In this document: piece after piece, positions 4,790 to 24,973 of the stretch
How the letters are laid out: every line of letters begins with the position of its first letter
Position numbering within the stretch: position 1 is the stretch's first letter
NCBI GenBank assembly: GCA_021295735.1
Contig: JAGWBU010000021.1
Span: 6,554 to 70,553 of the forward strand
Direction of reading: 5' to 3'
Length of the DNA: 64,000 nt
Source of the DNA: Candidatus Poribacteria bacterium
Lineage (GTDB): Bacteria; Poribacteria; WGA-4E; WGA-3G
The notes under the pieces: model-generated
The model's database searches: none
What the model saw: the letters and a program-made list of their open reading frames with translations, nothing else
What the model was told of the DNA's origin: nothing
Position numbers and translations under genes: made by a program

Positions 4790-5773
4790 ATGTTGAAACC
4801 AACCAAAGAGCAGATGCTTTTTATGTATCGCAAAATGGTAGAGATACGCCAATTTGAAGAAGCCGCTGGAACGCTTTATCAAAGTGGTCAACTCCCAGGC
4901 TTTTTGCACTTATACATTGGTGAAGAAGCGACAGCAGTAGGCGTCTGTGCACACTTAAAAGATGAAGATTACATCACCAGTACGCATCGTGGTCACGGAC
5001 ATCTCATCGCGAAGGGTGGTAAACGCGACCGCATGATGGCAGAATTATTTGCCCGCACAACCGGCTACTGTAAAGGCAAAGGCGGTTCAATGCACATTGC
5101 CGACAAAGAGACAGGTATTCTCGGTGCAAACGGTGTTGTCGGCGCAGGTATTCCACTTGCAGCAGGTGCTGCACTCTCTGCAAAGTACCGTGGTACGCAA
5201 CAGATCGCTGTATCTTTCTTCGGCGATGGTGCCACAAATCAGGGCGTCTTCCATGAAACGCTCAATCTCGCTGCAGTGTGGGAGCTGCCGGTTGTTTTTG
5301 TCTGTGAAAACAACCGATTCGGGATGGGAACGCCACAACATGAACATCAACGGGTAGAGGATATTGCTGTCCGTGCCCCCGCCTACGATATACCAGGACT
5401 TACCGTTGATGGAAACGATGTTCTGAAGGTTTATGCTGCAGCAGACGAAGCCGTTAAACGCGCACGCGAAGGTAGCGGTCCTACGCTCCTTAATTGTGAT
5501 ACCTACCGCTTCAAGGGGCATCACATCGGAGATCCAGGCACCTCTTACCGCGATCGCGAAGAGGTTCAAGAGCAGGAACGCCAACGCGATCCTATCCGAA
5601 GACTCGCCCAAGTTCTCACTGAAGAGAAAAGTGTAACACAAGAAGAACTTGAGGCACTTGAGGCAGAACTCGCAAATGAACTTGAGAAAGCGTTAGAGTT
5701 TGCAAAAAACAGTCCCGAACCACTTCCTGAAGATGCTTTAGATGACGTTTATGCAGGCTCCATTCAACCGTGA
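4790..5773 (+). CDS. Thiamine-diphosphate-dependent dehydrogenase E1 component, alpha subunit
   Basis: A 327-residue E1-alpha of the pyruvate / acetoin / 2-oxo-acid dehydrogenase type. The thiamine-diphosphate motif runs from G-D-G-A-T-N to C-E-N-N, and the early STHRGHGH segment and the KGHHIGDPG loop are present. The ATG follows AGGAAGG closely. E1 enzymes of this class need a beta subunit plus E2 and E3, and none is adjacent: the next gene is an MNT-HEPN protein. Whether it acts on pyruvate, acetoin or branched-chain oxo-acids cannot be told. An E1-alpha alone is unusual unless E1-beta lies elsewhere. Confidence 0.88.
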   Translation: MLKPTKEQMLFMYRKMVEIRQFEEAAGTLYQSGQLPGFLHLYIGEEATAVGVCAHLKDEDYITSTHRGHGHLIAKGGKRDRMMAELFARTTGYCKGKGGSMHIADKETGILGANGVVGAGIPLAAGAALSAKYRGTQQIAVSFFGDGATNQGVFHETLNLAAVWELPVVFVCENNRFGMGTPQHEHQRVEDIAVRAPAYDIPGLTVDGNDVLKVYAAADEAVKRAREGSGPTLLNCDTYRFKGHHIGDPGTSYRDREEVQEQERQRDPIRRLAQVLTEEKSVTQEELEALEAELANELEKALEFAKNSPEPLPEDALDDVYAGSIQP

Positions 5774-10667: not shown

Positions 10668-13600
10668 TTATTCCTCAACCGTGTCAGCAATCGGTTCAGG
10701 CTCAGAAACCGGTTCAGGTAATTCTTCAGGTTCCGGATTATCGATTGCGTCGCGTGACACTTCAAGTTCATGCCACTCAGAGAATCCTGTCCCAGCGGGG
10801 ATGAGGCGTCCGAGGATAACGTTTTCCTTTAGACCTGTAAGCAGGTCTGTTTGTCCTTCAACAGCGGCATCTGTGAGAACCTTGGGTGTCTGTTGGAAAC
10901 TCGCTGCAGAAATGAAACTATCCGTGCTAAGTGATGCTTTACTGATACTCTGCAAGACAGGTTCACCTGTTGCGGGGGTACCGCCTTCTTGTTCGACACG
11001 TCTGTTTTCGGCGTGGAACTTGTGTCGACTGACTTCATCGTTCGCGTAGAACTTTGTGTCCCCGACAGATAGGATGCGTATCTTTTGAAGCATCTGTCGC
11101 ACAATAACTTCCACGTGCTTATCGTTAATGCTGTCAGTCGGATAGACTGCCTGAACCTCATCCACAAGGTATGCCCAAAGTGCTTCTTCACCTTCCAGAG
11201 AATGTCCATTAAGGGTAGTTCTACCAATGGTAAGAATGTCATGTGGGTTGAGGTATCCGTCCGTCAGAGGTTCTCCTGCTTTGACCCAGTCACCATCATC
11301 AACACGGCGTTTCTCGTCGGGAATAGAATATAGACGACTTTTAGTAGCCCCATCTACGATTCGGTATTGGGGTACTCCAGCTTTCTGCCCGGTGAGTTGC
11401 ACATGCCCATCAATTTCAGCAATTTCAGCAGCATCTTCGCGTTTTGGACGCCGTGCTTCAAAAAGTTCCGTCACACGCGGAATCCCAGCAACAATGTCAA
11501 GGTTGGTAGTTTTTTCTTGCAATTCTGCCAACGAATGTTGTGCTTTGACACGTTGTCCATCCTTAACAGAAACTGAGTAACCAGCGGGAATAAGGTGCGA
11601 CACACTCCCGCCCCCTGGGATATCAATATCGACTCGGAAGGTTTCGATTAAGCCATCCACATCAACGCCAGCATATTGTTCAAGCGCGGTGGCATATTCC
11701 CAATCTTTCAACTCTTGATCGACATTAAGCGTACAGTTCGGATGCGTTACCTTGGTCACTCGATAGGTATTCTTTGAAGTAGAAGCCGATTCTTTTTTAT
11801 AGTTAGCATCACTGAGAATATCACCTACAGCAACCTCAGCATCAGGCGCGGTAACACCCGTTACCTTAAAGACACGTTCAGTATCAAAGCCTTTATAAAG
11901 TCGTTGGGCACGTTTATACTCAGTCTCGTCAATCTGTTGTCCAGCAGTAAACGGGCAATCATCATGATGAACAGCAAGGACGTGATACATCAGCTTTACA
12001 TCAGGCAGTGGCGTATCCGTGTCTCGATGTTGTTTCACAAGTGCTTTGTAGTCCGATTCTGTCATAGTTTCTTGATCTTCATCCCCTTCAGGGGCATGTA
12101 GATAAAGTTTCTCAAAGTCGAACCCCTTATAATTTCGCCGGTATCGATTAGACTCAGATTGCGTGATAAGTTCACCAACAGCAACGGGAAAGTCAGCGTG
12201 GTGTGAGGCTGCAACGCGGTAGAGTCGTTCAACCTCAAACGCTCCTTCATTCTTAGTGACATCAACCTCAAAACCTGGATATGCCTTCAACACTGCTTTT
12301 TTCTCATTTTCGGTGAGCAGTGTTTCAGGTTCCAACTTACAATCGGGATGATGCACAGCAGTAATACGGTATTTGAGTCGTTCGGCAGTAAACCCGCTGA
12401 ATTTATTCCGAAGTGCCTCTAATTTATCGGCTTCAATTAGTTCGTCAGGTTTTAGCGGGCATTCCGGGTGCATTACGTGTTTAACTCGATACAACTCCGC
12501 TGATGGGCGTTGCACTTCAAATGCTTTATACGTTTCCTGTGCACGTCGGAATTCTACAGCACTCAATTCTTGATCCACAGCTAAATCAATACCGTCACTG
12601 ACCTCTGTTAAGGTATACACCGGTTCATCAAGTTCCAAGTGGTACTGGCTCTCTTCTTCCGGCGAGAGTAGTTTTCCTTCCTTAAACGGACAACTCGGAT
12701 GTGTAACCTTCTGAATTTGATACATCATTTCGGCTTTCACACTGTCCTGCTTTCGTAAATATTCACTTTCGGTAAGGATCGTCCCTTTTTTCGTTTGGTA
12801 CACCCATTCACCATCAAACGGGCGGATCTCAGAACGCCATGTTTCCGCCTCGCTTTCTGTCAGCAATGTGCCTTCCTTCAGTGAAGTATCCGCATGTTTT
12901 ACACTTTTCACACGATAGTGTGGTTCAGAGCATCGGAACGGTGAGAATTTGTGAAAACAGATATTATATTCCTGTTCCGTTAGATATTGCCCCTCTTGCA
13001 ATGAAAAGCCTGATTCAGTGTTCGCTTCAATGATATCTGGACGTTTAACTCCAATAACTTGACAGGCGATAGGTTCAACCTCAAACCCAGGAAAACGTTC
13101 ACGGTTTTCCTCATGCTGTTTCTCGGTGAGGAGTTCATCCGGTTGCAGTTTGCATTCAGGGTGTTCTACGGTTTTAACCTTATATTTTGGTTGATCGAGG
13201 TGTTCCGCGACCTGTTGAACTATCCATAATCCGCTTTCTTCACGAACGGTACGTCCCGGAATGAAATCACGAAACCGCACTTTCCCGGTAGCCTTCGCCA
13301 GAATCTTACGTGCGAGTCGTTCACTCATATCTTCAACCACACCGCCTGTATGGAAAGTACGCATTGTCAACTGCGTCCCAGGTTCGCCGATAGATTGCGC
13401 TGCGATGATGCCGATAGCCTCTCCAACATTGGCAAGTTGTCCCGATGTTAAATCAGCGCCATAGCAGGTCGCACAGGTGCCTTTATCGGCCTCGCAGGTA
13501 AGTATAGATCTGACACGAACGCTGGGAACCTCAGCATCCTCAATAATTTGTGCTATCTGTGGTGTAATCAATGTGCCATCTTCAACCAACGTTTCCTCTG

Positions 13601-16286
13601 TCGTGGGATGTATGACAGGTTCCACGGTGACACGACCACTAATTTTGAAACTGATGGTTCCTGCGTCTGTGGTAAATTTGAGGATACCGTGCGTTGTGCC
13701 GCAATCATCTTCGGTAATCATAACATCTTGCGCAACATCAACAAGTTTCCGCGTGAGGTACCCAGAGGCAGCGGTTTTCATAGCGGTATCCACCAACCCC
13801 TTCCGTGACCCATAGGTTGAGGTAAAGTAATCAAGTACATCCAAGCCTTCCCGATAAGAAGATTGAATCGGTGTAGACAGAATCTCACCACTCTGCTTAG
13901 ATTTCAGTCCAACGATAGCACTAATTTGGATAAATGGATTTTTGCGAGCGCGGGCACCACTGTCTGCCATCAGATGCACAGGGCTAAAACCTTCAACCTC
14001 TTTACCTTGTTCAACCAGATACGTTTCTGTCGTCGGAAGCTCGGTAAACAGCGTCTCTTCAATTTTTTCGACAGCATCATACCATATCCGAATTTTCTGG
14101 TTCTCTAATTCCTCTGCCTCAAGGTTTTCTTCCTCGCTTAAACGTTCAATTTGTTTGCTTGCCGCAGTGAGGATTTTCGTTTTATCAAGCGGTATCAAGT
14201 AATCTCGTATACCAGGCGATATTCCGCTGCGAGTTGCGTACTCAAAACTAAGTTTCTGTAACCGATCTAACAACGATACAGTTTCTGCGGTCCCAAGTTC
14301 ATTAAAACAACGTTTGACAAGTTGCGACAAACGTCTACTGCGCGCTTCCTCATTGAAAAATGGCAATTCAAGTCCTGTAGTCTCATCTTTCCAAGTGAGT
14401 GAGGCGGTGCCGTTTGTATGCGGAAGAACCTCATTAAAAATCACACGTCCAACGGTCGTGAGGATTGGTTCATGATGTCCTTTGAAGAACAGTAGAACAG
14501 AATCATGCAGTTTGAGCGTGCCACAACCGTGTGCATGCGTCACCTCATCCACAGATGTAAATCGGCGCTTGGCCCAAACTTCATTTTCTAACGTAGCAAA
14601 GACGTTATCTGATTTGGCATCTCCTGATTTTTCTGTATAGGCAGCATGGAGTTGTTCTGCTCGTCCTTGGTGTTCTGGCAGTGATTTTGTTAGAAAACTC
14701 GCGCCTAAAATCATATCAAGTTCTGGCACTGTAATCGGTTCACCATGCGAAGGTTTGAGAATATTACCACTACTGAGTAGTAACATTTTCGCTTCTGCGC
14801 GAGCTTCAATAGATAGAGGCACATGAACTGCCATCTGATCACCATCAAAATCAGCATTAAACGCTTTACAAACAAGCGGTGGTATCCGAATTGACTTCCC
14901 TTCAACAAGCACAGGCATGAACGCCTGAATTCCGAGTCTGTGTAGCGTCGGAGGACGATTCAATAACACTGGATGGTCAGCGATAACTTCCTCTAATGCT
15001 TCCCAAACTGGCGAGTCTGGTGTAACGTGTTCGGTCAGATATTTGCCACGTTTAATAGTCTGCACTTTTCCAGCTGTTAAAAGTTTCTCAATAATAAATG
15101 GCTTAAAAAGTTCAACAGCCATTAATTTAGGCACCCCGCACTGATGAAGTTCCAGTTCGGGTCCGACAACGATGACGCTTCTGCCAGAATAGTCGACTCG
15201 TTTACCGAGTAGATTTTGTCGGAAACGTCCGACTTTACCTTTAAGGATATCAGATAAGGATTTGAGCGCGCGTTTACCAGGTCCAGTCACGCGACGCCCG
15301 TGCCTGCCGTTGTCCAAAAATGCGTCGACAGATTCCTGAAGCATCCGTTTTTCGTTTCGGAGGATGACTTCGGGAGACCGGAGATCAATAAGTTTTTGCA
15401 GTCGGTTGTTTCGGTTAATTACACGGCGATATAGATCGTTGAGATCACTTGTTGCAAACCTACCACCTTCCAAAGAGACTAAAGGACGAAGATCAGGGCT
15501 AATCACAGGAAGAACATCAAGGATCATCCAGTCAGGATGCATCTCTGCTCTGTCAAAACCTGCTACCATCTTGAGCTGCTTTGAAAGTTTTACTTTTTTC
15601 TGGTGGCTTGAGGTTGCCTCAAGTTCTTCTGTGAATTTTTTCACATCTTCTGGCAGATCAATTTTGCGCAGGAGTTCCTGAATTGCATCAGCCCCTGTTC
15701 GCGCTCGGAACGAATCCGGATGTTCACGCAGCTTAGCATTCACCTCCGTCTCTGTAAGGATATCTTTTTCTGCCAAACCACAACTGTCATCAATGACCTC
15801 TATAACAATAAATGCTTCAAAGTAAAGAACCCGCTCAACTTGTCGGGAGGCAAGCTCAAGGAACGTGCCAAGTCGCGATGGGATCCCTTTAAAAAACCAT
15901 ATATGGGAAACTGGCGTAGCAAGTTTGATGTACCCAAGTCGTTCTCGTCGGACTTGCGATTTTGTCACCTCAACTCCGCACTGGTCACAAATAAGACCTT
16001 TATGCTTAATTCGCTTATACTTACCGCAACTGCACTCAAAATCCTTTTGTGGGCCAAACGTTGCTTCACAAAATAAACCTTGATTTTCAGGGCGAAAACT
16101 CCGGTAGTTAATCGTTTCTGCCTTTTTGATTTCGCCGCAATCACATGTGCCTTTCTCGGGACACGTCCACGTATCGCTTGCTGGGTTCCGCCGCCTACAA
16201 GATGTCCGTTTTGCCCAATCCTTTATCTGCTCAGGCGAAGCGATACTGATAGAGATACGATTAAATCGATTTTCTTTGTCTGCCAT
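10668..16286 (-). CDS. rpoC: DNA-directed RNA polymerase subunit beta-prime, with a large repeat insertion
   Basis: About 1872 residues, some 465 longer than E. coli beta-prime. The N-terminal zinc ribbon, the RKR-rich clamp, the catalytic N-A-D-F-D-G-D (about 14837-14857), the bridge-helix region and the second zinc site (CEADKGTCATC) are all intact. The trigger-loop sequence GTQLTMRTFHTGG (about 13340-13385) is followed by a short conventional domain. Then comes a tandem-repeat block (11650-13184), after which the chain resumes at the conserved VTELFEARRPK. The acidic C-terminus is Glu/Pro-rich. The start is set at the ATG at 16286, with AAGGAG upstream at 16295-16300, rather than the in-frame ATG 14 codons earlier. 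rpoB lies 127 bp upstream on the same strand. Confidence 0.97.
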   Translation of the reverse strand: MADKENRFNRISISIASPEQIKDWAKRTSCRRRNPASDTWTCPEKGTCDCGEIKKAETINYRSFRPENQGLFCEATFGPQKDFECSCGKYKRIKHKGLICDQCGVEVTKSQVRRERLGYIKLATPVSHIWFFKGIPSRLGTFLELASRQVERVLYFEAFIVIEVIDDSCGLAEKDILTETEVNAKLREHPDSFRARTGADAIQELLRKIDLPEDVKKFTEELEATSSHQKKVKLSKQLKMVAGFDRAEMHPDWMILDVLPVISPDLRPLVSLEGGRFATSDLNDLYRRVINRNNRLQKLIDLRSPEVILRNEKRMLQESVDAFLDNGRHGRRVTGPGKRALKSLSDILKGKVGRFRQNLLGKRVDYSGRSVIVVGPELELHQCGVPKLMAVELFKPFIIEKLLTAGKVQTIKRGKYLTEHVTPDSPVWEALEEVIADHPVLLNRPPTLHRLGIQAFMPVLVEGKSIRIPPLVCKAFNADFDGDQMAVHVPLSIEARAEAKMLLLSSGNILKPSHGEPITVPELDMILGASFLTKSLPEHQGRAEQLHAAYTEKSGDAKSDNVFATLENEVWAKRRFTSVDEVTHAHGCGTLKLHDSVLLFFKGHHEPILTTVGRVIFNEVLPHTNGTASLTWKDETTGLELPFFNEEARSRRLSQLVKRCFNELGTAETVSLLDRLQKLSFEYATRSGISPGIRDYLIPLDKTKILTAASKQIERLSEEENLEAEELENQKIRIWYDAVEKIEETLFTELPTTETYLVEQGKEVEGFSPVHLMADSGARARKNPFIQISAIVGLKSKQSGEILSTPIQSSYREGLDVLDYFTSTYGSRKGLVDTAMKTAASGYLTRKLVDVAQDVMITEDDCGTTHGILKFTTDAGTISFKISGRVTVEPVIHPTTEETLVEDGTLITPQIAQIIEDAEVPSVRVRSILTCEADKGTCATCYGADLTSGQLANVGEAIGIIAAQSIGEPGTQLTMRTFHTGGVVEDMSERLARKILAKATGKVRFRDFIPGRTVREESGLWIVQQVAEHLDQPKYKVKTVEHPECKLQPDELLTEKQHEENRERFPGFEVEPIACQVIGVKRPDIIEANTESGFSLQEGQYLTEQEYNICFHKFSPFRCSEPHYRVKSVKHADTSLKEGTLLTESEAETWRSEIRPFDGEWVYQTKKGTILTESEYLRKQDSVKAEMMYQIQKVTHPSCPFKEGKLLSPEEESQYHLELDEPVYTLTEVSDGIDLAVDQELSAVEFRRAQETYKAFEVQRPSAELYRVKHVMHPECPLKPDELIEADKLEALRNKFSGFTAERLKYRITAVHHPDCKLEPETLLTENEKKAVLKAYPGFEVDVTKNEGAFEVERLYRVAASHHADFPVAVGELITQSESNRYRRNYKGFDFEKLYLHAPEGDEDQETMTESDYKALVKQHRDTDTPLPDVKLMYHVLAVHHDDCPFTAGQQIDETEYKRAQRLYKGFDTERVFKVTGVTAPDAEVAVGDILSDANYKKESASTSKNTYRVTKVTHPNCTLNVDQELKDWEYATALEQYAGVDVDGLIETFRVDIDIPGGGSVSHLIPAGYSVSVKDGQRVKAQHSLAELQEKTTNLDIVAGIPRVTELFEARRPKREDAAEIAEIDGHVQLTGQKAGVPQYRIVDGATKSRLYSIPDEKRRVDDGDWVKAGEPLTDGYLNPHDILTIGRTTLNGHSLEGEEALWAYLVDEVQAVYPTDSINDKHVEVIVRQMLQKIRILSVGDTKFYANDEVSRHKFHAENRRVEQEGGTPATGEPVLQSISKASLSTDSFISAASFQQTPKVLTDAAVEGQTDLLTGLKENVILGRLIPAGTGFSEWHELEVSRDAIDNPEPEELPEPVSEPEPIADTVEE
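11650..13184 (-). repeat. Protein-level tandem repeat array inside beta-prime
   Basis: About 510 residues made of roughly 13 degenerate units of 26-50 residues. The core pattern is Y-[RK]-V-x3-H-P-x-C-x-[LF], then L-[LIT]-[ST]-E-x-E, then about 8 residues and G-F-x-x-E. The H-P-x-C centre is clear in at least five units (for example VEHPECKL, VTHPSCPF, VMHPECPL, VHHPDCKL, VTHPNCTL) and eroded in the rest. The reading frame is open throughout and flanked by canonical polymerase sequence, so it is translated. It lies in the trigger-loop region where other bacteria carry the SI3 insertion, but the units do not look like the sandwich-barrel hybrid motifs of known SI3. Confidence 0.85.
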
Positions 16287-16413
16287 TCTTTCTGCTCCTT
16301 TAATGGTTGTAGGAATGGCTATCGGCAATTAGCCCTCGGCTTTCAGTATAAGAGATATGTGATGTATGCCAGTCCCCTTACCGATAGCCGATAGTTGATA
16401 GCCATGTTTCAAA

Positions 16414-19400
16414 CTATTCGGCGTCATCGGTGTCCCACGTGAGTTTTAAAGGTGGTTCCTCATCTATGGGTTCCATTGTATCCAACGTGTGTAAGAGCGG
16501 GAATCCCGCTTCATGGAGACCTACTTGTTCTGAGTCAACATCTGCAGGGTCACCTTCAGATAATTCCACATTTAAACCAAGACTTTGCAATTCTCTCACC
16601 AACACGTTAAAAGATTCAGGGGTGCCGGGTTTTAAAGGACTTTGACCTTTTACAATAGATTCATAAATTTTGGTTCTGCCTTTTACATCGTCCGACTTGA
16701 TAGTCAACATCTCTTGCAGTGTGTGTGCTGCACCATAAGCCTCCAATGCCCAAACCTCCATTTCACCGAGTCGTTGCCCTCCGTGTTGGGCCTTTCCACC
16801 CAGCGGTTGCTGTGTCACCAAGGAGTACGGCCCGGTTGAACGCGCATGCATTTTATCCGCAACGAGGTGATTCAACTTGAGAAAATAAACATAACCAACT
16901 GTTACTTCCTGTCCGAACGGTTCACCAGTGCGTCCATCATAGAGTACGCTTTTACCTGTCTGTTTGACCTTATCAGGCAAACCCGTTTTCACCAACATGT
17001 CGAACACCTCTTCCTCTGTAGCACCGTCAAATACAGGTGAGGCAACATGCAAACCGAGTTCCTTGCATGCCAAACCTAAATGTATTTCGAGAATCTGACC
17101 AACATTCATCCGAGAAGGCACGCCAAGAGGATTTAAAACTATATCAACAGGAGTACCATCCGGTAGGTATGGCATATCTTCTTCGGGTAAAATTTTGGCG
17201 ACAACGCCCTTGTTACCGTAGCGCCCCGCCATTTTATCTCCGATGGAGATCGGACGTCGACTTGCAACATAGACTTTGACAAGTTTCAAAACCCCCGGTT
17301 TTAACTCTTCACCTGCAGCGAGTTTTTCCAACGCGTCATCTTTTTCCTGCGTATAAGCATTAATCCGACCAGTGGCGAGTTCTTGCAGATTCTTAATGTA
17401 CGACACTGCATCTGCATCTGTGATCTGAAGTGCTTCCAATTGACTTTGCGACAGCACGTCCAGATATTCACGCGTCAACACTTCACCTGCCTGCATCTGC
17501 AGAGGTGCTTCAGTGTTTTCCCCATCCTCAGCCTTACTATCCTCCTCAAAAGTTGTTGGATACGCGAGTTCTTTGTTGACCAAAGTCTCACGTAATTCTT
17601 CTGTCAAGCGTTCGGTAACTTGTGCACACTGTTCTGTCCAGGTTTGCTCAATTTGTTTTCGGAATGCCTCTTGCCGCCAAGCGGTTCGCTCGCTATTAGG
17701 GGTAGCTTGGCGAGAGAATACCTTTACGTCAATGACAACGCCTTCTACGCCTGGTCGGGTGTAAGCGGAAGCGTCTTTTACCTCTTTGACTTTCTCCCCG
17801 AAAATCGCTCGTAGTAGTTTTTCTTCAGGACCATATTCACTTTCCCCTTTTGGAGAGATTTTTCCGACAAGAATACTACCGGTCCCAACGACACTCCCGA
17901 TCCGAATGATTCCTTCGTCATCAAGTTGGGCAAGGCTCCGGGCAGACATGTTTGGAATATCACGGGTGATCTCTTCGTCTCCCATCTTTGTTTGCCTCGC
18001 GGCGACTTCGAATTCTTCAATATGGATAGAGGTGAACGTATCGTTTTTGATGAGCGACTCGCTGATGAGGATTGAGTCCTCAAAGTTGTGTCCGCCCCAC
18101 GGCATATAGGCGCAAAGAACATTTCTTCCAAGTGCGAGTTCACCACCTTCAGTTGCTGTGCCATCGGCAACAACATCGCCAGCTTCAACAACATCGCCTA
18201 TATTCACGCGTGGACGCTGATGGATACAGGTGCCGCTGTTACTCCGCTTGAAGTTTTTCAGTTTATAGACATCGTAGCCCATTTCACTGAAAGCATGCTC
18301 ACCTTCTTCAAGATGAAGCGCTTGCCCAGTGCGGATCAGGATCTCTTCGGCATCAACGCTGGAGACAACCCCATCACGTTGTGCGATGACCATAGCATTA
18401 GCATCACGCGCAGCGCGATGTTCCATACCGGTCCCAACCCACGGTGCCTCTGGACGAATTAGCGGTACTGCCTGTCGCTGATGGTTAGCCCCCATGAGTG
18501 CACGGTTAGCATCTTCATGCTCCAAAAAAGGCACAAGCGCAGCGGAAACACCAACAATTTGTTGCGGAGCGATACCGATGTAATCAATTTCTTTAAGCTC
18601 GCGCGGAAGCACTTCCTCACCTTTTCGGCTACGAAGTATTTTTGATCTACTGTGAGAAGATATAGCATCTGCAGGGGCAATGTGGTACTTGTCCTCTGCA
18701 TCTGCTGTTAAATATTCAACATCTTTGGTAATTTTACCTCTGCGGACAACACGGTAGGGTGTTTCTAAAAACCCGTATGGATTAACACGCGCAAAAGTTG
18801 CTAAGGAAACTATGAGACCGATGGAGGGCCCCTCCGGCGTTTCTAAAGGACAGACACGTCCATAATGCGTGCGATGGACATCTCGCACGGCTGCGGTAGC
18901 ACGGTCACGATGTAACCCGCCAGGACCGATCGCTGAAATACGACGTTTATGGGTGAGTTCATCCAACGGATTAATCTGTTGCATGAATTGGGAAAGTTGG
19001 TTAGAGCCGAAAAACTCTCGGAGTGCCATCATGAGTGGCTTTGGATTCACCAAATTCTTCGGATTTTTCAGCTGTGCATCAGTGGTCGTACTTAGTTTTT
19101 CTCGCGCTGCCCGGCGCATTTGCAGCAGTGCCATGCGAAATTGATTCTCAAGCAGTTCTCCGATAACACGCACGCGGCGATTTCCGAGATGGTCTAAATC
19201 ATCTACTTCTCTGTGCCCATTTCGGATGTGCATCAGGTGTTGTAAAGTGGCAGCGATATCCTCTTTGCGAAGTACCTTTATCTCTTCTAATGGCATCTCA
19301 CCGGATTCATCAATATAGATAGCTAAATCACCGAGTTGCGTATTGAGTTTGTATCTTCCGACGGTGCCTAAATCATAACGTGCGCCATCAAAAAACAGGC

Positions 19401-20439
19401 GTTCTAAGCAAGTTGAAGATGCTTCGCGTGTTGGGGCATCGCCAGGCCGCAAGGTGCGAAATATCTCAAGCAGTGCTCCCTCTTGCAATGTTCCACCTGC
19501 ATACGCCTTAACCGTGTCACGCGAAAGCGTATTCCGCAAATATCGTAGTTCCTGTTCATCTGATTCCCCCAACACTTCCACCTCTGATATCTTAGCTTCG
19601 GTGAGTCGATCAAATTCTATTTCAGATAACTTCGTATTTGCTTCAAGCAAAACTTCGCCTGAACTGGCGTCAACCACAGGTTCCGCGATAACGCGTCCGA
19701 TAACATCCTGCGTCATCGGAACGATCTCTGTGCTGCTGAAAAGTTTTAGGATTTCCGCATCTGTTTCCCAACCGAGTGCCCGTAAAAGGACGGTAGCTAA
19801 TAGTTTTTTCTTTCGGTCTAATCGGACGTGGATGCAGTCCTTTGAATCAAACTCAAATTCTATCCATGCGCCTCGATAGGGAATAATCTGGCCTGTTGGG
19901 AGTTTCTGCACACTTGCTGCATGCGATTTATCAAGAAAAATTACGCCTGGAGACCGATGTAACTGGTTTACAATCACACGTTCGGACCCGTTAATGATAA
20001 AAGTTCCATTCTCAGTCATCAACGGAATATCACCAAGGTACACATCAGATTCGGTAATATCTAAAACACGCGTTTGCCCTGTATCCTCATCCTTTTCGCG
20101 TTCGACGCGCATCAGGCGGGCTTGTAGCCGCACCTGATAGTTCAGGCCGCGTGCTTGACAATCCGAAAGATCGTGTATGGGTGGACTAAGCGTGTAACTG
20201 ACAAATTCAAGACTTGTCGTTTCTTTAAAATCATAAATCGGAAAAACTTCCTTGAACAGTGCCTGAAGTCCCATCGTCTCGCGTTCATTTCCTTCAACAA
20301 AACGTTGTAAAAATGCTGCGTAGGAACGCTTTTGGGTCTCAATTAAGTCAGGCAGTTCAAGCACCGATGGAGTTTTGGCAAAGGAGACACGTTGTCGTAA
20401 CGCTGCTGAACTTCCATTAGTTTTAGTAGTATTGGGCAT
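16414..20439 (-). CDS. rpoB: DNA-directed RNA polymerase subunit beta
   Basis: 1341 residues, like other bacterial beta subunits. The rifampicin-pocket region is FFGSNQLSQFMQQINP followed by LTHKRRISAIGPGG. The GRVCPLETPEGPSIGLI stretch, the active-site lysines (VKVYVASRRPISIGDKMAGR) and the C-terminal MEVWALEAYGAAHTLQEM clamp segment are intact. Compared with E. coli, the residue at position 516 (Asp) is Gln and 518 (Asn) is Ile. rpoC follows after 127 bp containing a small GGCTATCGG / CCGATAGCC inverted repeat. The usual rplJ-rplL genes are not upstream; instead there are about 950 non-coding bases with a MITE and a strong promoter. Confidence 0.98.
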   Translation of the reverse strand: MPNTTKTNGSSAALRQRVSFAKTPSVLELPDLIETQKRSYAAFLQRFVEGNERETMGLQALFKEVFPIYDFKETTSLEFVSYTLSPPIHDLSDCQARGLNYQVRLQARLMRVEREKDEDTGQTRVLDITESDVYLGDIPLMTENGTFIINGSERVIVNQLHRSPGVIFLDKSHAASVQKLPTGQIIPYRGAWIEFEFDSKDCIHVRLDRKKKLLATVLLRALGWETDAEILKLFSSTEIVPMTQDVIGRVIAEPVVDASSGEVLLEANTKLSEIEFDRLTEAKISEVEVLGESDEQELRYLRNTLSRDTVKAYAGGTLQEGALLEIFRTLRPGDAPTREASSTCLERLFFDGARYDLGTVGRYKLNTQLGDLAIYIDESGEMPLEEIKVLRKEDIAATLQHLMHIRNGHREVDDLDHLGNRRVRVIGELLENQFRMALLQMRRAAREKLSTTTDAQLKNPKNLVNPKPLMMALREFFGSNQLSQFMQQINPLDELTHKRRISAIGPGGLHRDRATAAVRDVHRTHYGRVCPLETPEGPSIGLIVSLATFARVNPYGFLETPYRVVRRGKITKDVEYLTADAEDKYHIAPADAISSHSRSKILRSRKGEEVLPRELKEIDYIGIAPQQIVGVSAALVPFLEHEDANRALMGANHQRQAVPLIRPEAPWVGTGMEHRAARDANAMVIAQRDGVVSSVDAEEILIRTGQALHLEEGEHAFSEMGYDVYKLKNFKRSNSGTCIHQRPRVNIGDVVEAGDVVADGTATEGGELALGRNVLCAYMPWGGHNFEDSILISESLIKNDTFTSIHIEEFEVAARQTKMGDEEITRDIPNMSARSLAQLDDEGIIRIGSVVGTGSILVGKISPKGESEYGPEEKLLRAIFGEKVKEVKDASAYTRPGVEGVVIDVKVFSRQATPNSERTAWRQEAFRKQIEQTWTEQCAQVTERLTEELRETLVNKELAYPTTFEEDSKAEDGENTEAPLQMQAGEVLTREYLDVLSQSQLEALQITDADAVSYIKNLQELATGRINAYTQEKDDALEKLAAGEELKPGVLKLVKVYVASRRPISIGDKMAGRYGNKGVVAKILPEEDMPYLPDGTPVDIVLNPLGVPSRMNVGQILEIHLGLACKELGLHVASPVFDGATEEEVFDMLVKTGLPDKVKQTGKSVLYDGRTGEPFGQEVTVGYVYFLKLNHLVADKMHARSTGPYSLVTQQPLGGKAQHGGQRLGEMEVWALEAYGAAHTLQEMLTIKSDDVKGRTKIYESIVKGQSPLKPGTPESFNVLVRELQSLGLNVELSEGDPADVDSEQVGLHEAGFPLLHTLDTMEPIDEEPPLKLTWDTDDAE

Positions 20440-20880
20440 AAATTTTCACCTTGCGTGGGTCGCTGATGGATTGAAGGGTTTGTCCGATTAGGCTGCTGTT
20501 TCTAACGAATTGACAGAGAAATACTTTCTGTTATCGGAAAAGGTGCTTACCAATAACAGATACTCAAAAACAATTCTCATTACAAGCTATTGGGTTTTCT
20601 TTCACGACTTCTGTTGTTTTTGTGCTTGAATGTGCAATGCTGCTTGGGGTAGTGAAACATTCTGTTGAATTGCGAATAGTTGGCGATATAACGGTTCACA
20701 TAACTAACAATTGTGCCGATTCTCGTTCTTCAAAGTGAATACGAATTCGCAGAAGACCGAATATCCACGATTTTGATGTAGGGTTCATCGTTAAGATTGT
20801 CACCGACTAACTGGATGCTTTTTTGCTGCCCAGCATCTTCCTGTCAGAGGGACAGTTGTGAATGCGATGAATCTGATTTA

Positions 20881-21020
20881 TAGTGAAATCCATAATTATT
20901 TGGACATTTTGTTCTTATGCGGATTTCAAACACACCATAAATATAAGAGGCGCAATGAATTGCGCGACTACAAACGCCGCTAACCTTAAGAAAATGTAAA
21001 GGTATTTTTAGATTTTACTA
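20881..21020. mobile_element. Family B MITE-like element, copy 1 (in the rpoB leader)
   Basis: 140 bp. The left end is TAGTGAAATCCATAATTATT and the right end is the imperfect complement ending GATTTTACTA, with TA on both outer sides (20879-20880, 21021-21022). Its core holds the palindrome GCGCAATGAATTGCGC (20950-20965) followed by GACTACAAAC. It is over 90% identical to 23107-23245. It lies between the predicted rpoB promoter and rpoB, so it would be transcribed in the leader. The rest of 20440-21387 shows no gene. Confidence 0.85.
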
Positions 21021-21245
21021 TATTAAACATTATCAGGCAGTGGGCGCGAAAAAACGCTTGACCTCACATACCTCATAAAAGAAGCAAACGAAGTACTTGA
21101 CAACCTGTGGCACAACACCAAACAATTATTAATATTTTTCATTTGATTTCAAAAACAGTTGCCTATTTTTTGAAGAAGTTATATACTTCCCTATAAAGAT
21201 GTTTCAATACATACTTTTCCTTAACTTCTTAAGGCGTAACGTATA

Positions 21246-21274
21246 ATTATACCTTAAGGTTTACAAAATGTCAA
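21246..21274 (-). promoter_or_regulatory. Perfect-consensus sigma-70 promoter directed toward rpoB
   Basis: On the minus strand TTGACA (21274-21269), an exact 17-bp spacer and TATAAT (21251-21246). No other candidate of this quality lies before rpoB. It implies a 5' leader of about 800 nt that includes the family B element. DUF4416 starts divergently at 21388. Confidence 0.65.
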
Positions 21275-21387
21275 GAAAAAGCGCGTAAAGTTGTAAAAAT
21301 TTTCAATTTTGACATATATTTCCCACAAAAGTTCGAAATTTCGGTTGAGGTATAGCACCATTAAATTATTCAGTTACGCGCGAATTT

Positions 21388-21918
21388 ATGCAAACACTTA
21401 GAGAGCAACTACCTGTCAAAGCGATTATTGGCGTTCTGACAGCGGAACCGCCAATTCTGCCGAAGGTCTATCAGCAATTGGCAGACCAATTCGGTCCTAT
21501 CGACTATACCAGTGAACTTTTACCATTTACCAGTACAACTTACTATGAAGGCGAGATGGGACAGGGACTGCAACGCCAATTTATCAGTTTCAAAAAACTG
21601 GTTGATGCCGGAACGTTGGCAGATAGAAAGTTATTTACAAATCAAGTAGAACAAGCATTTGTACAAAAAGACACCTCACAGCGACGTGTCAATTTAGATG
21701 TGGGTTACGTCTGTATGGCAAAGTTGGTGCTTGCGTCAACAAAAGATCACGCGCACCGTATTTATCTCCGTGATGGTATCTATGCAGAAATTACGCTCCG
21801 TTTTTATCGTAAAACGTTCCAGCCGTGGGAATGGACGTATCCAGATTATCGTTCCCCTGCTTACATTGCTATTTTTAATCAAATTCGCACTATCTATAGG
21901 GAGCAACTTAACGTATGA
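21388..21918 (+). CDS. DUF4416 family protein
   Basis: 176 residues matching the DUF4416 pattern as I recall it. It has an early K-A-I-I-G-V-L-T segment, the YYEGEMG motif, RVNLDVGYV and a C-terminal PWEWTYPDYRS-P-Y. No enzymatic role is established for the family. Its last four bases overlap the start of the downstream P1 peptidase (ATGA), indicating translational coupling. Confidence 0.8.
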   Translation: MQTLREQLPVKAIIGVLTAEPPILPKVYQQLADQFGPIDYTSELLPFTSTTYYEGEMGQGLQRQFISFKKLVDAGTLADRKLFTNQVEQAFVQKDTSQRRVNLDVGYVCMAKLVLASTKDHAHRIYLRDGIYAEITLRFYRKTFQPWEWTYPDYRSPAYIAIFNQIRTIYREQLNV

Positions 21919-23099
21919 ACACACATACACAAAAATCCAAGATAGGAACTATTGTTTGCGCTTATGCACGTTCTAAAATCTTCATTTCTTGCATTATCTA
22001 CACTTTTTTGGTACAACTCGTAAGTTTTATCGGGGCACAAGAAACAGAAACTCCCCGAGTGCGGGCGCGAGAACTCGGTATCCACATAGGCACGCTTCCT
22101 ACTGGTGAACACAATGCTATTACGGACGTTACTGGTGTCAAAGTCGGACATGTTACGCTAAACGAAGGCGATTCAATTCGCACTGGCGTAACCGCTATAC
22201 TCCCTCACGATGACATTTGGAAGGTAAGATTGTTCGGTGCGGCGCATACTATCCATGGCAACGGTGAAACCACCGGCATTGCCCGAATTAATCAGGCGGG
22301 ATGGATTGAATCGCCTATTTTGCTGACAAATACGCTGAGTGTTGGTGCTGTTCACGATGGTGTTGTGCGATATATTGTAAAGCGTTACCCTGATGATAAC
22401 ATCGTGCTTCCGATTGTGGCAGAATGCTACGATGGTGTGTTGAACGACATCAGCGGACTCCATATAAAACCGGAACACGCGATTGAGGCAATAGAGAAAG
22501 CAACATCTGGTCCGGTAGCAGAAGGTTGTGTCGGTGGTGGCACAGGTATGCGTTGCTACGGTTTTAAAGCAGGTATCGGTACTGCTTCGCGAGTTTTACC
22601 ACCAGATGTAGGTGGGTGGAAAGTGGGTGTATTGGTGAACTCCAACGGTGGAAGACGGCACCAATTGCGTATTGACGGTGTGCCAGTCGGTAAGGCGTTG
22701 GAAGATAACCAATTGAAACCGGGCAGAGATGGATCGTTTATTATTGTTATCGCAACGGACGCACCTTTGACACACCGCCAATTGAAACAACTGGCTATCC
22801 GTGCGACACACGGTCTTGCCCGCACAGGCACGCCGAGCACAGACGGCAGCGGCGAATTTGTTATCGCATTTTCAACTGCAAATGTCTTTCCAAGCAACAC
22901 TGAAACCGGGACTTTTCAGATTCAGATGGTCGTTAACAGACGTTTAAGTTTGCTTTTTGAGGCAGCTATTGAGGCAACTGAGGAGGCAGTTATCAACTCA
23001 ATGACAATGGCAACGACGATGACGGGGCGTAATGGGCGGACAATGCCCGCGATTCCGCTGGAGCAGTTGAAACAGGTGATGAAACAGTATGGGCGTTGA
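21915..23099 (+). CDS. P1 family (DmpA-type) peptidase, probably exported
   Basis: 394 residues. A hydrophobic stretch at about residues 16-37 followed by A-Q-E resembles a signal peptide. The mature part has the S58/DmpA hallmarks: NAITDVTGVKVGH, the N-G-N-G-E-T segment, the VLVNSNGG strand, and the autoprocessing Gly-Ser with catalytic Ser in RDGSFIIVIATDAPL. Such enzymes are N-terminal-nucleophile aminopeptidases or amidases that cleave themselves at that Gly-Ser. The start overlaps the DUF4416 stop by 4 bp. A family B element begins 8 bp after its stop. Confidence 0.9.
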   Translation: MNTHTQKSKIGTIVCAYARSKIFISCIIYTFLVQLVSFIGAQETETPRVRARELGIHIGTLPTGEHNAITDVTGVKVGHVTLNEGDSIRTGVTAILPHDDIWKVRLFGAAHTIHGNGETTGIARINQAGWIESPILLTNTLSVGAVHDGVVRYIVKRYPDDNIVLPIVAECYDGVLNDISGLHIKPEHAIEAIEKATSGPVAEGCVGGGTGMRCYGFKAGIGTASRVLPPDVGGWKVGVLVNSNGGRRHQLRIDGVPVGKALEDNQLKPGRDGSFIIVIATDAPLTHRQLKQLAIRATHGLARTGTPSTDGSGEFVIAFSTANVFPSNTETGTFQIQMVVNRRLSLLFEAAIEATEEAVINSMTMATTMTGRNGRTMPAIPLEQLKQVMKQYGR

Positions 23100-23106
23100 G
23101 TGTTTA

Positions 23107-23245
23107 TAGTGAAATCCATAATTATTTGGACATTCTGTTCTTATGCGGATTTCAAACACACCATAAATATAAGAGGCGTAATGAATTGCGCGACTACAAA
23201 CGCCGCTAATCTTAAGAAAATGTCCAGTTATTTTAGATTTTACTA
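23107..23245. mobile_element. Family B MITE-like element, copy 2
   Basis: 139 bp with the same ends as 20881-21020 (TAGTGAAATCC... and ...GATTTTACTA), flanked by TA at 23105-23106 and 23246-23247. The core palindrome at 23176-23191 has one change (GCGTAAT). It sits directly after the P1 peptidase gene. Confidence 0.85.
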
Positions 23246-23466
23246 TAATAACCTAAGTTGCTACGGACAAGATTTCAAGTTCGCAAATACTGCTTTTTAC
23301 TGAAAAAACAAGGCTTTTTCGCTGATTCTTATGTTTTTTGTTCTAAATCGGGGTTAGAAACTGGGTTATAATACGGGTTATGCACTTTCAATTATTTGCG
23401 AGGTGTAGTGTTTTGTAAACCACCCTTTCCTGTAGAAGCGAGTTCTAACTCACGCCCTGAAATTAC

Positions 23467-23495
23467 TTGACATCTGATGCAAATTTGTGTTAAAC
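23467..23495 (+). promoter_or_regulatory. Sigma-70 promoter for the DUF6883/DUF4926 toxin locus
   Basis: TTGACA (23467-23472), a 17-bp spacer and TTAAAC (23490-23495), about 35 bp before the readable DUF6883 remnant. The rest of 23246-23520 shows no gene. Confidence 0.5.
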
Positions 23496-23529
23496 TTCAG
23501 CTTGTGAATCACTATCCTTTTTAACTAAA

Positions 23530-23670
23530 AAGAACGCCTATGGATAGCGGTATACACTTGATTTCACGCTGCATTGGCAGGACAAACAAGCGACAATTCA
23601 GAGTGCTTGGATTATTGAAACTAATTCTGATGTCCCAAAATTGATTACCGCGTTTCCTTTGTTATGGTAA
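23530..23670 (+). pseudogene. DUF6883-like gene remnant with an in-frame TAG
   Basis: The frame reads K-N-A-Y-G-stop-R-Y-T-L-D-F and continues through SAWIIETNSD and PKLITAFPLLW to TAA at 23668-23670. The TAG at 23545-23547 sits where related proteins have a residue between YG and RYTLDF; a Gln codon (CAG) would be one change away. Only the C-terminal third is recognisable. DUF6883 proteins are, as I recall, often encoded directly before DUF4926 proteins, and that order is seen here with a 9-bp gap. Confidence 0.55.
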
Positions 23671-23679
23671 GGATGTACT

Positions 23680-24102
23680 ATGAAAAATAAATTTTTCGAT
23701 GACACCTCACACATAGATAACTTGCCTGAAGATAAACAAAAACCTACAGAAAAAGGCAAAATCAAACTTCTGGATGTTGTTGCGCTTACTGAGGACATAC
23801 CTGAACATAATCTTAAGCGTGGAGAAGCCGGCGCAGTCGTTGAAATCCTTGCAGATGGTGAAGCGTTTGAGGTTGAATTTAGTGATGACAATGGACAAAT
23901 GTACAAGTGTACCAGTTTACTTGCATCTCAACTTAGTGTGCTTCCACCTGAACCGACAAAAGCAAATGCGACAGCACAACGCTTAATCAAGGCAATGGAG
24001 AAACCGCCGCATCTCACTGATGAAGACATTGAAGCACTGAATCAGTCAATAAAAGAGGGGGAAATACCTATAAAGTTTGATTCGCCCTTTGAACTGGATT
24101 AA
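23680..24102 (+). CDS. DUF4926 protein with a VapB-like C-terminal tail (putative antitoxin)
   Basis: 140 residues. Residues about 30-92 are a small DUF4926 beta domain (LLDVVALTEDIPEHNLKRGE, GAVVEILADGEAFEVEFSD). Residues about 97-140 carry the pattern PPHLTDEDIEALNQSIKEGE ending FDSPFE, which resembles the toxin-binding tail of VapB-type antitoxins. AAGGA precedes the ATG. A degraded PIN toxin follows 10 bp later, supporting an antitoxin role. This combination looks like a join of a DUF4926 module and an antitoxin tail. The frame is intact. Confidence 0.65.
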   Translation: MKNKFFDDTSHIDNLPEDKQKPTEKGKIKLLDVVALTEDIPEHNLKRGEAGAVVEILADGEAFEVEFSDDNGQMYKCTSLLASQLSVLPPEPTKANATAQRLIKAMEKPPHLTDEDIEALNQSIKEGEIPIKFDSPFELD

Positions 24103-24112
24103 TACGAAAATA

Positions 24113-24527
24113 ATGAATAAATATCTCCTTGAAACAACAACATGTAGTGAGTTGATAAAGGAAACCCTAAAGTTAAAGGGCGTTTGAATTCTCTAACCGA
24201 GTCGGACTACCATTTTACTTCCCCATCGTTAAGGGCGAAATTCTGTTTGGAATTGTTCGGCTTCCTATTGGAAAAAGACGACAAGAACTTCAACAAAAGG
24301 CAAATGATTTATTTGCTGCTGTTACTTGTGACCCAATCCCAGAAAATGCTGGCAATACTTATGCCCACATAAAAGTTGCTGCTCAACAGCAAGGAACGTC
24401 TTTAGGTGAATGCGACCTTTGGATTGCTGCTACGGCTTTATCTCTTGATGCAATCTTGGTTGCTTCTGATTCCGATTACGAGAGAATAATCGGGTTGGGA
24501 TTGCGTTTGGAAAATTGGGAGAACTAA
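24113..24527 (+). pseudogene. VapC-type PIN-domain toxin, two frameshifts
   Basis: Three consecutive frames spell a complete PIN protein. First MNKYLLETTTCSELIKETLK, then R-L-N-S-L-T-E-S-D-Y-H-F-T-S, then IVKGEILFGIVRLPIGKRR through LGECDLWIAATALSLDA to LRLENWEN and TAA. The breaks lie near 24180 and 24228; each looks like a one-base deletion. The first catalytic Asp of PIN domains (LLDT) is Glu here (LLET), while the GEIL Glu and the ECDLW Asp are kept. No functional toxin can be made. Confidence 0.8.
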
Positions 24528-24565
24528 CAAGGACATTCAATAATGCCGGTCTTAAGGTAAAGACA

Positions 24566-24973
24566 ATGAAATATATCTACCACAAAGAGGATGCCGAAGT
24601 CGTTCGGATTGAAGATGATGCCCCACGGACGTTGTATACGCTCATTGAACCGAATACCAGCGACACAGAACACTTCGCAATGGGATTAGAAGAAATTGAC
24701 CCGAATAGCGAAATACCGATTCACTCGCATAGTGAAGCAGAGGAGATTATATTTGTGTTTGGTGGGAAAGGGAAAGCGTTTGTTGGCGATGAGGTGGCAG
24801 AGTTGAAACCCGGTACGGTGATCTATCTTCCACCCAACGTTGAACACCGCTTTGTCAACACAGGCGATGAACCGCTTTGGATTACATGGACGCTTTCACC
24901 ACCCGGCTTTGAGAAACAGATTCGCAAAATTGCGGATGGGTCTGCGGGGATGGAAGTTTTCAGCGAATCTTGA
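24566..24973 (+). CDS. Cupin-domain protein
   Basis: About 135 residues, a single beta-barrel cupin. Motif 1 is H-S-H-S-E-A-E-E (metal ligands His, His, Glu) with a following G; motif 2 is PPNVEHRFVNTG with its His. No attached enzymatic domain is present, so it is a small metal-binding cupin of unknown substrate (isomerase, dioxygenase or sensor are all possible). A longer frame begins at 24515 inside the VapC remnant; the ATG at 24566 is preferred. Its TGA abuts the fusA stop with no spacer (convergent genes). Confidence 0.8.
   Translation: MKYIYHKEDAEVVRIEDDAPRTLYTLIEPNTSDTEHFAMGLEEIDPNSEIPIHSHSEAEEIIFVFGGKGKAFVGDEVAELKPGTVIYLPPNVEHRFVNTGDEPLWITWTLSPPGFEKQIRKIADGSAGMEVFSES

Follow-up and report, generated by a model that had tools for sequence, protein, structure and literature searches.

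An array of thirteen small-left-claw-like units nested in the trigger-loop insertion (SI3) of a Poribacteria RNA polymerase

Background

In Escherichia coli, the SI3 insertion (beta'i6) interrupts the trigger loop of the RNA polymerase beta' subunit and holds two sandwich-barrel hybrid motifs (SBHMs) in 188 residues, according to the available part of PMC2939025. The cyanobacterial Si3, of 630 to 645 amino acids, occupies the same site and is made of a repeated small module, SBHM/HABAS, whose copies are split by others. It swings with the trigger loop, and in the accessible portion of PMC10802570 this large swing is reported not to alter catalysis markedly; together with sigma it forms an arch (PMC10120043, in part). 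RpoB, too, can have a module repeated in tandem within an insert specific to a lineage: at beta-i4, the BBM2/BEAN repeats are predicted to number one to six (PMC2939025). The small left claw, or sLC (CATH 3.30.60.280), is the name given to beta'-bD2 in PMC11515920; it is represented in beta' by bD2 and bD7 and is elsewhere found as single core domains. The part of that source at our disposal describes neither an sLC array in SI3 nor an sLC in RpoB.

The locus analyzed here lies in a stretch of 64,000 nucleotides from a Candidatus Poribacteria bacterium, hereafter the window. Its rpoC gene has an insert at the same trigger-loop point as E. coli SI3, with a host domain that matches the E. coli SBHMs; in contrast to E. 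coli SI3, which is without such an array, a single SBHM here holds a 513-residue array of sLC-like units. In size and site the insert is similar to the cyanobacterial Si3, and it too repeats a small module. The module differs, however, both from SBHM/HABAS and from BBM2/BEAN, and the inserts of the family reach 850 to 931 amino acids.

Results and discussion

The insert in rpoC

The two polymerase genes are consecutive, both on the minus strand: rpoB (16414..20439) encodes 1341 amino acids, and rpoC (10668..16328) encodes, in one open frame matching TIGR02386 with 1418.7 bits, a beta' subunit of 1886 amino acids; in two other families of this order, f2 and f4, RpoC has about 1430. Between the peptides TMRTFHTGG and VTELFEARRPK stands an insert of 622 amino acids (11475..13340), and the insertion point in the trigger loop is confirmed by the Rpb1 domain 5 model, which matches both flanks. 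The initial annotation had counted about 510 extra residues, at 11650-13184. In number and position this fits the repeat array (residues 1048-1560, 513 amino acids, 11649..13187), and not the whole insert, the remainder of which, about 109 residues, corresponds by structural alignment to one E. coli-like SI3 SBHM domain, split by the array into an N-terminal half (residues 997-1047, 13188..13340) and a C-terminal half (residues 1561-1618, 11475..11648). The insert could not be assigned convincingly to any family through Pfam, NCBIfam or PDB sequences (best Pfam E value 0.1, best PDB E value 1.3).

The same subunit contains two ordinary sLC domains: bD2, in the clamp (residues ~169-213, 15690..15824), and bD7 (residues ~1749-1783, 10980..11084), the latter placed by the position of the motif and by the match of the modelled unit fold to residues 1256-1309 of E. 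coli beta'.

Thirteen diverged units

The array was laid out as 13 units of 25 to 49 amino acids. Starting at its N-terminal end, these are unit 1 (13071..13187), unit 2 (12921..13067), whose loop is 9 amino acids longer and holds nuclease or nuclease-like domains in the related loci L039 and L088, unit 3 (12804..12920), a short unit 4 (12729..12806), unit 5 (12621..12725), unit 6 (12495..12620), unit 7 (12375..12494), unit 8 (12258..12374), unit 9 (12105..12224), unit 10 (11991..12107), which is degenerate in the window, unit 11 (11874..11990), unit 12 (11769..11873) and unit 13 (11649..11768).

A model built from the 13 units re-finds all 13, but this is circular, and a leave-one-out (jackknife) test was therefore run, in which each unit was omitted in turn and scored against 2000 shuffles of itself. 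Twelve of the 13 units scored above all 2000 shuffles, whereas the score of unit 10 was reached by 137 of them, so that this unit fails the test. The tandem repeat of about 13 units noticed initially is therefore real, and individual units can be traced across the family in alignments. Tandem Repeats Finder, run on the DNA, did not detect the array, which indicates that the copies are well diverged. At the position of unit 10, sequences of genus g2 (for example locus L017) have a clearer sLC pattern by eye.

The units resemble an sLC domain of beta' itself

On sequence profiles and predicted structure, we identify the units as repeated copies of the sLC module that RpoC itself has as beta'-bD2, with an sLC-like predicted fold. 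When the whole genome of the window was searched in six frames with the unit profile, 14 matches reached E <= 10. The array accounts for 13 of them; the remaining one, weak (E 0.046), is at RpoC bD2. Among 14 genomes of the same order that are devoid of the array, the best six-frame match was RpoC bD2 in 11 (E 6.7e-8 to 4.2e-4), as judged by comparing the places of the matches with those of the RpoC frames; two of these 11 had weaker additional matches elsewhere (E 0.05-0.8), and the other three, all of family f3, gave no match to the profile. On the RpoC proteins of array-less relatives, the unit model likewise matches residues ~174-205, that is, bD2.

A profile-profile comparison with the RpoC and RpoB of eight array-less relatives, cut into 537 sliding windows, gave the same answer: the top 12 windows all overlap bD2, with a best probability of 97.5, and the next window has a probability of 12. 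No bD7 window is among the 16 best, which leaves bD7 as the origin of the units without sequence support. The windows of RpoC bD5 and RpoB beta-i4 from the relatives, which would have reflected BEAN/BBM2 similarity, are also absent from the 16 best, and no SBHM window of RpoC exceeds a probability of 12. Against PDB, the unit profile matches beta' bD2 weakly (E 0.045), below a guanylate-binding protein (E 0.018) that we take as a chance match.

The AF2 model of units 7-9 (pLDDT 78.2, pTM 0.47), like that of the whole insert (below), shows units with a helix of about 10 residues between strands, as opposed to the all-beta, four-stranded SBHM/HABAS. Foldseek itself returned no match at E <= 0.001 for this model or for the whole-insert model, and only re-alignment of its candidates was informative: units 7-9 were re-aligned to the 76 best candidates, giving 47 rows. 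Judged from entry, length and range, 45 of these belong to beta'-type chains, with the match at bD7 in 42 and at bD2 in 3 (in E. coli, at 1256-1309 and 141-181, respectively), with an rmsd of 1.2-2.2 over 38-47 residues and Z of 2.6-5.7. A Z of about 5 is modest for a 45-residue unit. Sequence thus points to bD2, and predicted fold to either sLC domain, mostly bD7; we infer that the lineage's own bD2 gave rise to the units by amplification.

The initial annotation had expected a novel or non-SBHM fold. The array is indeed a non-SBHM element at the SI3 position, but the fold of its unit is not novel, since beta' already has the sLC module twice. The doubt raised at the same time, that the units could be ordinary SBHMs, is answered by the helix of the modelled units and by the profile, which selects bD2 and not SBHM windows. 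The insert does contain one SBHM, as the host of the array; that the array itself is nothing else than an ordinary SBHM-built SI3 nevertheless has, given the helix and the profile, almost no probability left in our estimation.

One SBHM domain as host

The whole insert was modelled with AF2 from a family alignment of 40 sequences, namely 39 of the 45 loci found by scanning (see below) and the window (pLDDT 77.8, pTM 0.46). When the array is looped out, the ends of this model (within residues 37..638) can be superposed on either SBHM of E. coli SI3, the second giving the better alignment (Z up to 12.8, 80 residues, rmsd 2.0) and the first a Z of about 10. In the model, the array is nested within a loop of one SBHM domain of SI3. 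The pTM of 0.46-0.47 in both models means that they do not fix the shape of the whole arm.

Three array-less genomes (G037, G043 and G050) have at this site an insert of 187-211 residues in which two SBHM-like stretches are recognized by eye, the second resembling the host domain of the window. As these relatives have two such stretches, one SBHM appears to be missing in family f1, to which the window belongs, with the array nested in the other.

Compared with what characterizes SI3 (beta'i6), the insertion lies in the trigger loop and contains at least one SBHM, but its composition is not purely SBHM, 513 of its 622 residues belonging to the sLC array. The contrast drawn initially with SBHM-built SI3 insertions therefore holds for the array and has to be softened for the insert, where an SBHM domain persists as the host. 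We regard as probable, and as the best explanation, that the insert is an SI3 with one SBHM, and that inside the loop of this domain the sLC module (bD2) would have been multiplied 13-fold.

The His/Cys motif

The recurring His and Cys residues had suggested metal binding. The pair H-x2-C is present in six units of the window (1, 5, 7, 8, 11 and 13), and in units 1 and 7 neither residue of the pair varies across the 40 sequences, which speaks for a function of this kind. The pair is however absent in 7 of the 13 units, and no unit has more than a single His and a single Cys from the motif. Moreover, the Cys is also present in the bD2 of array-less relatives (DPNC, DSEC); it was found in f2, f4 and the f1 genera g1 and g2, and not in the examined sequences of f3, f5, f6 and g3, the His position in the bD2 of the order being Asp or another residue. 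Most simply, the Cys would be a residue inherited from the source module. In view of the His/Cys counts and of the Cys in bD2, metal binding was rejected as the main reading, and we hold it to be very improbable.

Distribution and selection

We surveyed 84 Poribacteria genomes, 58 in family f1 and 26 outside it. Between 7 and 15 unit matches were found in 55 of the 58 f1 genomes; the three exceptions are G004, G008 and G068, the first two of which gave no RpoC. None of the 26 others (including G057 and G058, which gave no RpoC) had more than one match, and 11 of them had a single one. Within the phylum, the array is restricted to one family. The insert alignment, used in the form of two peptide patterns to scan genome_contigs, yielded 45 distinct loci, all from Poribacteria and, by their titles, all from metagenome-assembled genomes (MAGs). 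This one pattern scan, which may omit records very near that of the window, is the basis for the distribution beyond the phylum, so that arrays elsewhere are possible. Both surveys agree with a lineage-limited distribution, which the initial annotation had named as support for its reading, the array having been seen so far in one lineage. Publications on Poribacteria and rpoC were, by title, on other subjects in what was a narrow search for earlier reports.

Variation in unit number had also been suggested as informative. In g1, the genus of the window, insert length is nearly constant: of the 15 measurable genomes, 12 have 622 amino acids and the other three 624 (four of the 15 missed by the anchor pattern, three of 624 and one of 622); across the family it ranges from 622 to 931, and two of the long inserts hold nuclease or nuclease-like domains.

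In comparisons of the window with eight members of its genus (510 gap-free aligned residues per pair), dN/dS is 0.10-0.16 for the array and 0.04-0.06 for the core, and dN of the array is 2.5-2.9 times that of the core. The array is under purifying selection; together with the AF2 model, this supports the view that it is translated and folds as part of the polymerase. The units differ in their conservation between genera: identity to the window is 0.40-0.51 for units 1, 3, 7, 8, 9, 11 and 13, and 0.17-0.24 for units 2, 4, 5 and 12, and certain units, such as unit 1, retain invariant residues across the family.

Such uneven conservation would fit a few interface units, and repeat arrays often bind partners. 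By analogy, the array could serve to dock a protein factor peculiar to the lineage, as proposed initially; the better conserved units may, however, simply be those that fold best, and we consider this role unlikely.

sLC units in RpoB of sister genera

In the species of the window, sLC units were not found in RpoB, unlike in genera g2 and g3. Relative to the window, RpoB of g2 has 124-137 additional residues at a site that we take to be beta-i4 and 289-329 at what is presumably beta-i9 (10 of 10 sequences examined), and RpoB of g3 has 202-203 additional residues at beta-i4 (2 of 2); these site names follow from the position in the alignment and from the E. coli sequence. The additional residues contain sLC units at each of these places, and at beta-i4 the units precede, by eye, a BEAN-like stretch in both genera. 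In most array-less relatives beta-i4 is likewise longer, yet it gives no unit matches.

The g3 beta-i4 array matches the array of the window with an E value of about 1e-17 over some 200 residues. In a donor test on five beta-i4 sequences, the unit with an RRKWKGF-like peptide is closest to SI3 unit 9 (three sequences) or 7 (two), and the first unit to unit 8 (three), 7 (one) or 13 (one). Judging from these matches, it is suggestive that the beta-i4 units were copied as a block from the SI3 array.

Nuclease cassettes in rpoB and rpoC of relatives

Some relatives carry, at various sites of rpoB and rpoC, in-frame cassettes that combine sLC units with a nuclease or nuclease-like domain. In RpoC of locus L055, an insert of 420 amino acids, in bD5 by position, contains REase_MTES_1575 (E 8.1e-23) followed by sLC units; in L082, an insert of 360-394 amino acids (by alignment) just after bD7 contains the same domain (E 9e-20), again followed by sLC units. 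These two inserts are homologous (375 residues, 36% identity, E 1.8e-49) although they occupy different rpoC sites in different species. The start of the L082 insert resembles a second bD7. In L039, the SI3 array harbors REase_MTES_1575 within its unit 2 (E 6.7e-23), so that this domain exceeds the Pfam cut-off in three RpoC inserts (L039, L055 and L082). The loop of unit 2 in L088 has an HNH-like stretch (E 0.05, below the cut-off), and L058 has an insert of about 433 amino acids without clear family and with a coiled-coil look by eye.

In RpoB, genome G015 has 471 extra residues with sLC units and an HNH-like motif, seen by eye and without Pfam HNH match, and G075 has about 500, with sLC units and an HSDR_N-like stretch (E 0.0075, below the cut-off). 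A copy of the G075 cassette, 49% identical over about 470 residues, is found in an 851-amino-acid TPR protein of G082, which is not an RNA polymerase subunit; among the matches listed, no other hit to the sLC part falls outside rpoB and rpoC frames (judged by frame length, with a check of four doubtful contigs). The g2 RpoB beta-i9 inserts match the second half of the G075 cassette with E values down to 3e-40, and in the one such insert tested Pfam recognized no nuclease. A search for PF18741 in 57 genomes of the family gave an above-cut-off match in 21; by frame length, three of the matches are in RpoC (G033, G009 and G063), and the remaining ones are in frames of other lengths.

Three species (G009, G015 and G011) have RpoC N-terminal parts that are 98.6-99.2% identical; a cassette is present in RpoC of G009 only and in RpoB of G015 only, and neither is present in G011. 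At the flank of the G009 insertion, DNA identity to G015 is about 93% and drops to about 60% within roughly 20 codons, in a stretch that is also more variable between two cassette-free species (77-83%).

Mobile sequences inside conserved reading frames are known in the form of inteins and of Rickettsia palindromic elements. The former were considered for the long rpoC frames of the relatives and rejected: a nuclease domain is present, but Pfam scans of the inserts detected no self-splicing (Hint) domain. The latter also reside in conserved frames, but the cassettes are much longer. Closer is the ShiLan domain, an insertion in a phage methylase without internal stops or splicing domain and associated with a nuclease, as described in the available part of PMC11855218; the HNH is out of frame there, whereas here the genes are bacterial rpoB and rpoC and the nuclease or nuclease-like domain is in frame.

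A possible reading, which we hold to be doubtful, is that a selfish, in-frame, non-splicing nuclease element invades rpoB and rpoC, and that the array of the window is a domesticated fossil of it. The element would consist of short YKVTxVP repeats, a domain from any of three nuclease or nuclease-like families, and tandem sLC units, which, copied from the polymerase, would fold as a harmless chain of beads. Young copies, with nuclease, would be those in RpoC bD5, beside bD7, in unit 2 of SI3 and at two RpoB sites; in older copies the nuclease would have decayed (g2 RpoB beta-i9) or disappeared (RpoB beta-i4 and the 13-unit SI3 array of the window, which would have become fixed throughout the family). 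That the array of the window has no BLAST hit to the MTES cassettes at E <= 1e-3 counts against this reading, and so do the small number of RpoC nuclease domains above the Pfam cut-off, just three, and the MAG origin of the records, homing being a proposal. In limited searches, furthermore, no relative of the L055 cassette was found in viral_contigs (by pattern scan) or in phages, and none of the window array in plasmids.

Possible role of the array

Given its position, the array must move with the trigger loop. We tentatively favor, at slightly less than even chances and by analogy with the cyanobacterial insertion, that it works as a swinging arm: beta-alpha-beta beads fixed to the trigger loop would swing as the loop folds and lean on outer surfaces of the polymerase, as cyanobacterial SI3 does with its SBHM units, and could in this way influence pausing, the stability of the open complex or how accessible the secondary channel is. 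That the large swing is reported to leave cyanobacterial catalysis without marked change counts against such an effect.

Alternatively, the array may be a fixed and tolerated by-product of recombination, perhaps a cassette relic, with no role in transcription; selection would then act only to have it fold and not interfere. We take this rival seriously, while judging it rather unlikely: it would account for the occurrence of sLC units in several unrelated places of RpoB and RpoC, for the differing in-frame insertions of three species whose RpoC N-terminal parts are nearly identical, and for the elevated dN of the array, but less easily for an insert that stays at 622-624 residues in 15 measured members of the genus, or for invariant residues kept by particular units, such as unit 1, over the family.

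Conclusions

The surprise of this locus is that the array is built of the polymerase's own clamp module, and is neither a new fold nor, in all likelihood, a metal array. In one bacterial family, a beta' core module would have been multiplied 13-fold on a moving catalytic element, and would also have reached beta. The resulting arm, of about 60 kDa as estimated from its 513 residues, would represent a second natural solution, beside the cyanobacterial SBHM arch, for hanging an arm on the trigger loop. Insertions in RNA polymerase have been read, in the part of PMC11515920 available, as early events that tapered off. In this lineage they apparently continue: species whose RpoC is nearly identical are set apart by additional in-frame insertions, some of which contain nuclease domains, and in this family the way polymerase insertions arise may be open to direct observation instead of guesswork.

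Other genes of the window

Between rpoB and the EF-G gene (window 24974-27079), our ORF survey of window 20440-24973 found no minus-strand ORF of at least 150 aa, a size threshold that would pass over smaller ribosomal-protein genes; DUF4416 and peptidase S58 genes occupy the opposite strand of this interval. The window also encodes, on the minus strand at 59537-62383, a eukaryote-like repeat protein of 948 aa (Pfam WD40, E = 1.5e-80).

Insertions in RpoB and RpoC of relatives

In one Poribacteria relative (G033, locus L039), a REase_MTES_1575 nuclease domain (Pfam E = 6.7e-23) spans RpoC residues 1123 to 1295 approximately, inside unit 2 of the trigger-loop insertion SI3, and is nested in the array of sLC units, copies of a small module present in the beta' clamp. 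MTES_1575 and sLC units are also found together in two in-frame RpoC inserts, of about 420 aa in L055 (7038-8297, plus strand) and about 360 aa in L082 (5812-6918, plus strand), which are homologous, yet belong to different species and lie at two different RpoC sites.

RpoB carries in-frame inserts with sLC units as well, of about 471 aa with an HNH-like stretch in genome G015 (L164:3017-4429, minus strand) and about 500 aa with an HSDR_N-like stretch in G075 (L165:11452-12969, minus strand). The first part of a non-polymerase ORF of 851 aa in L163 (4562-7117, minus strand) is 49% identical to the G075 insert; this ORF combines HSDR_N-like stretches, sLC units, TPR repeats and, by eye, a hydrophobic stretch.

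Other RpoC additions include about 430 extra residues in L058 (5853-7211, plus strand), near the position of residues 713-733 in the window's RpoC, which appear coiled-coil-like by eye and for which Pfam gives no clear family. In other Poribacteria families, insertions at the SI3 site measure 396 aa (L046, G036) and 245 aa (L051, G053), and sequence added past the ordinary sLC copy bD7, BEAN-like by eye, is present in L048 (G049) and L051. Finally, L081 has an additional sLC-like unit (5223-5525, plus strand) in or beside bD2, the other ordinary copy, which possibly exemplifies a first duplication step.
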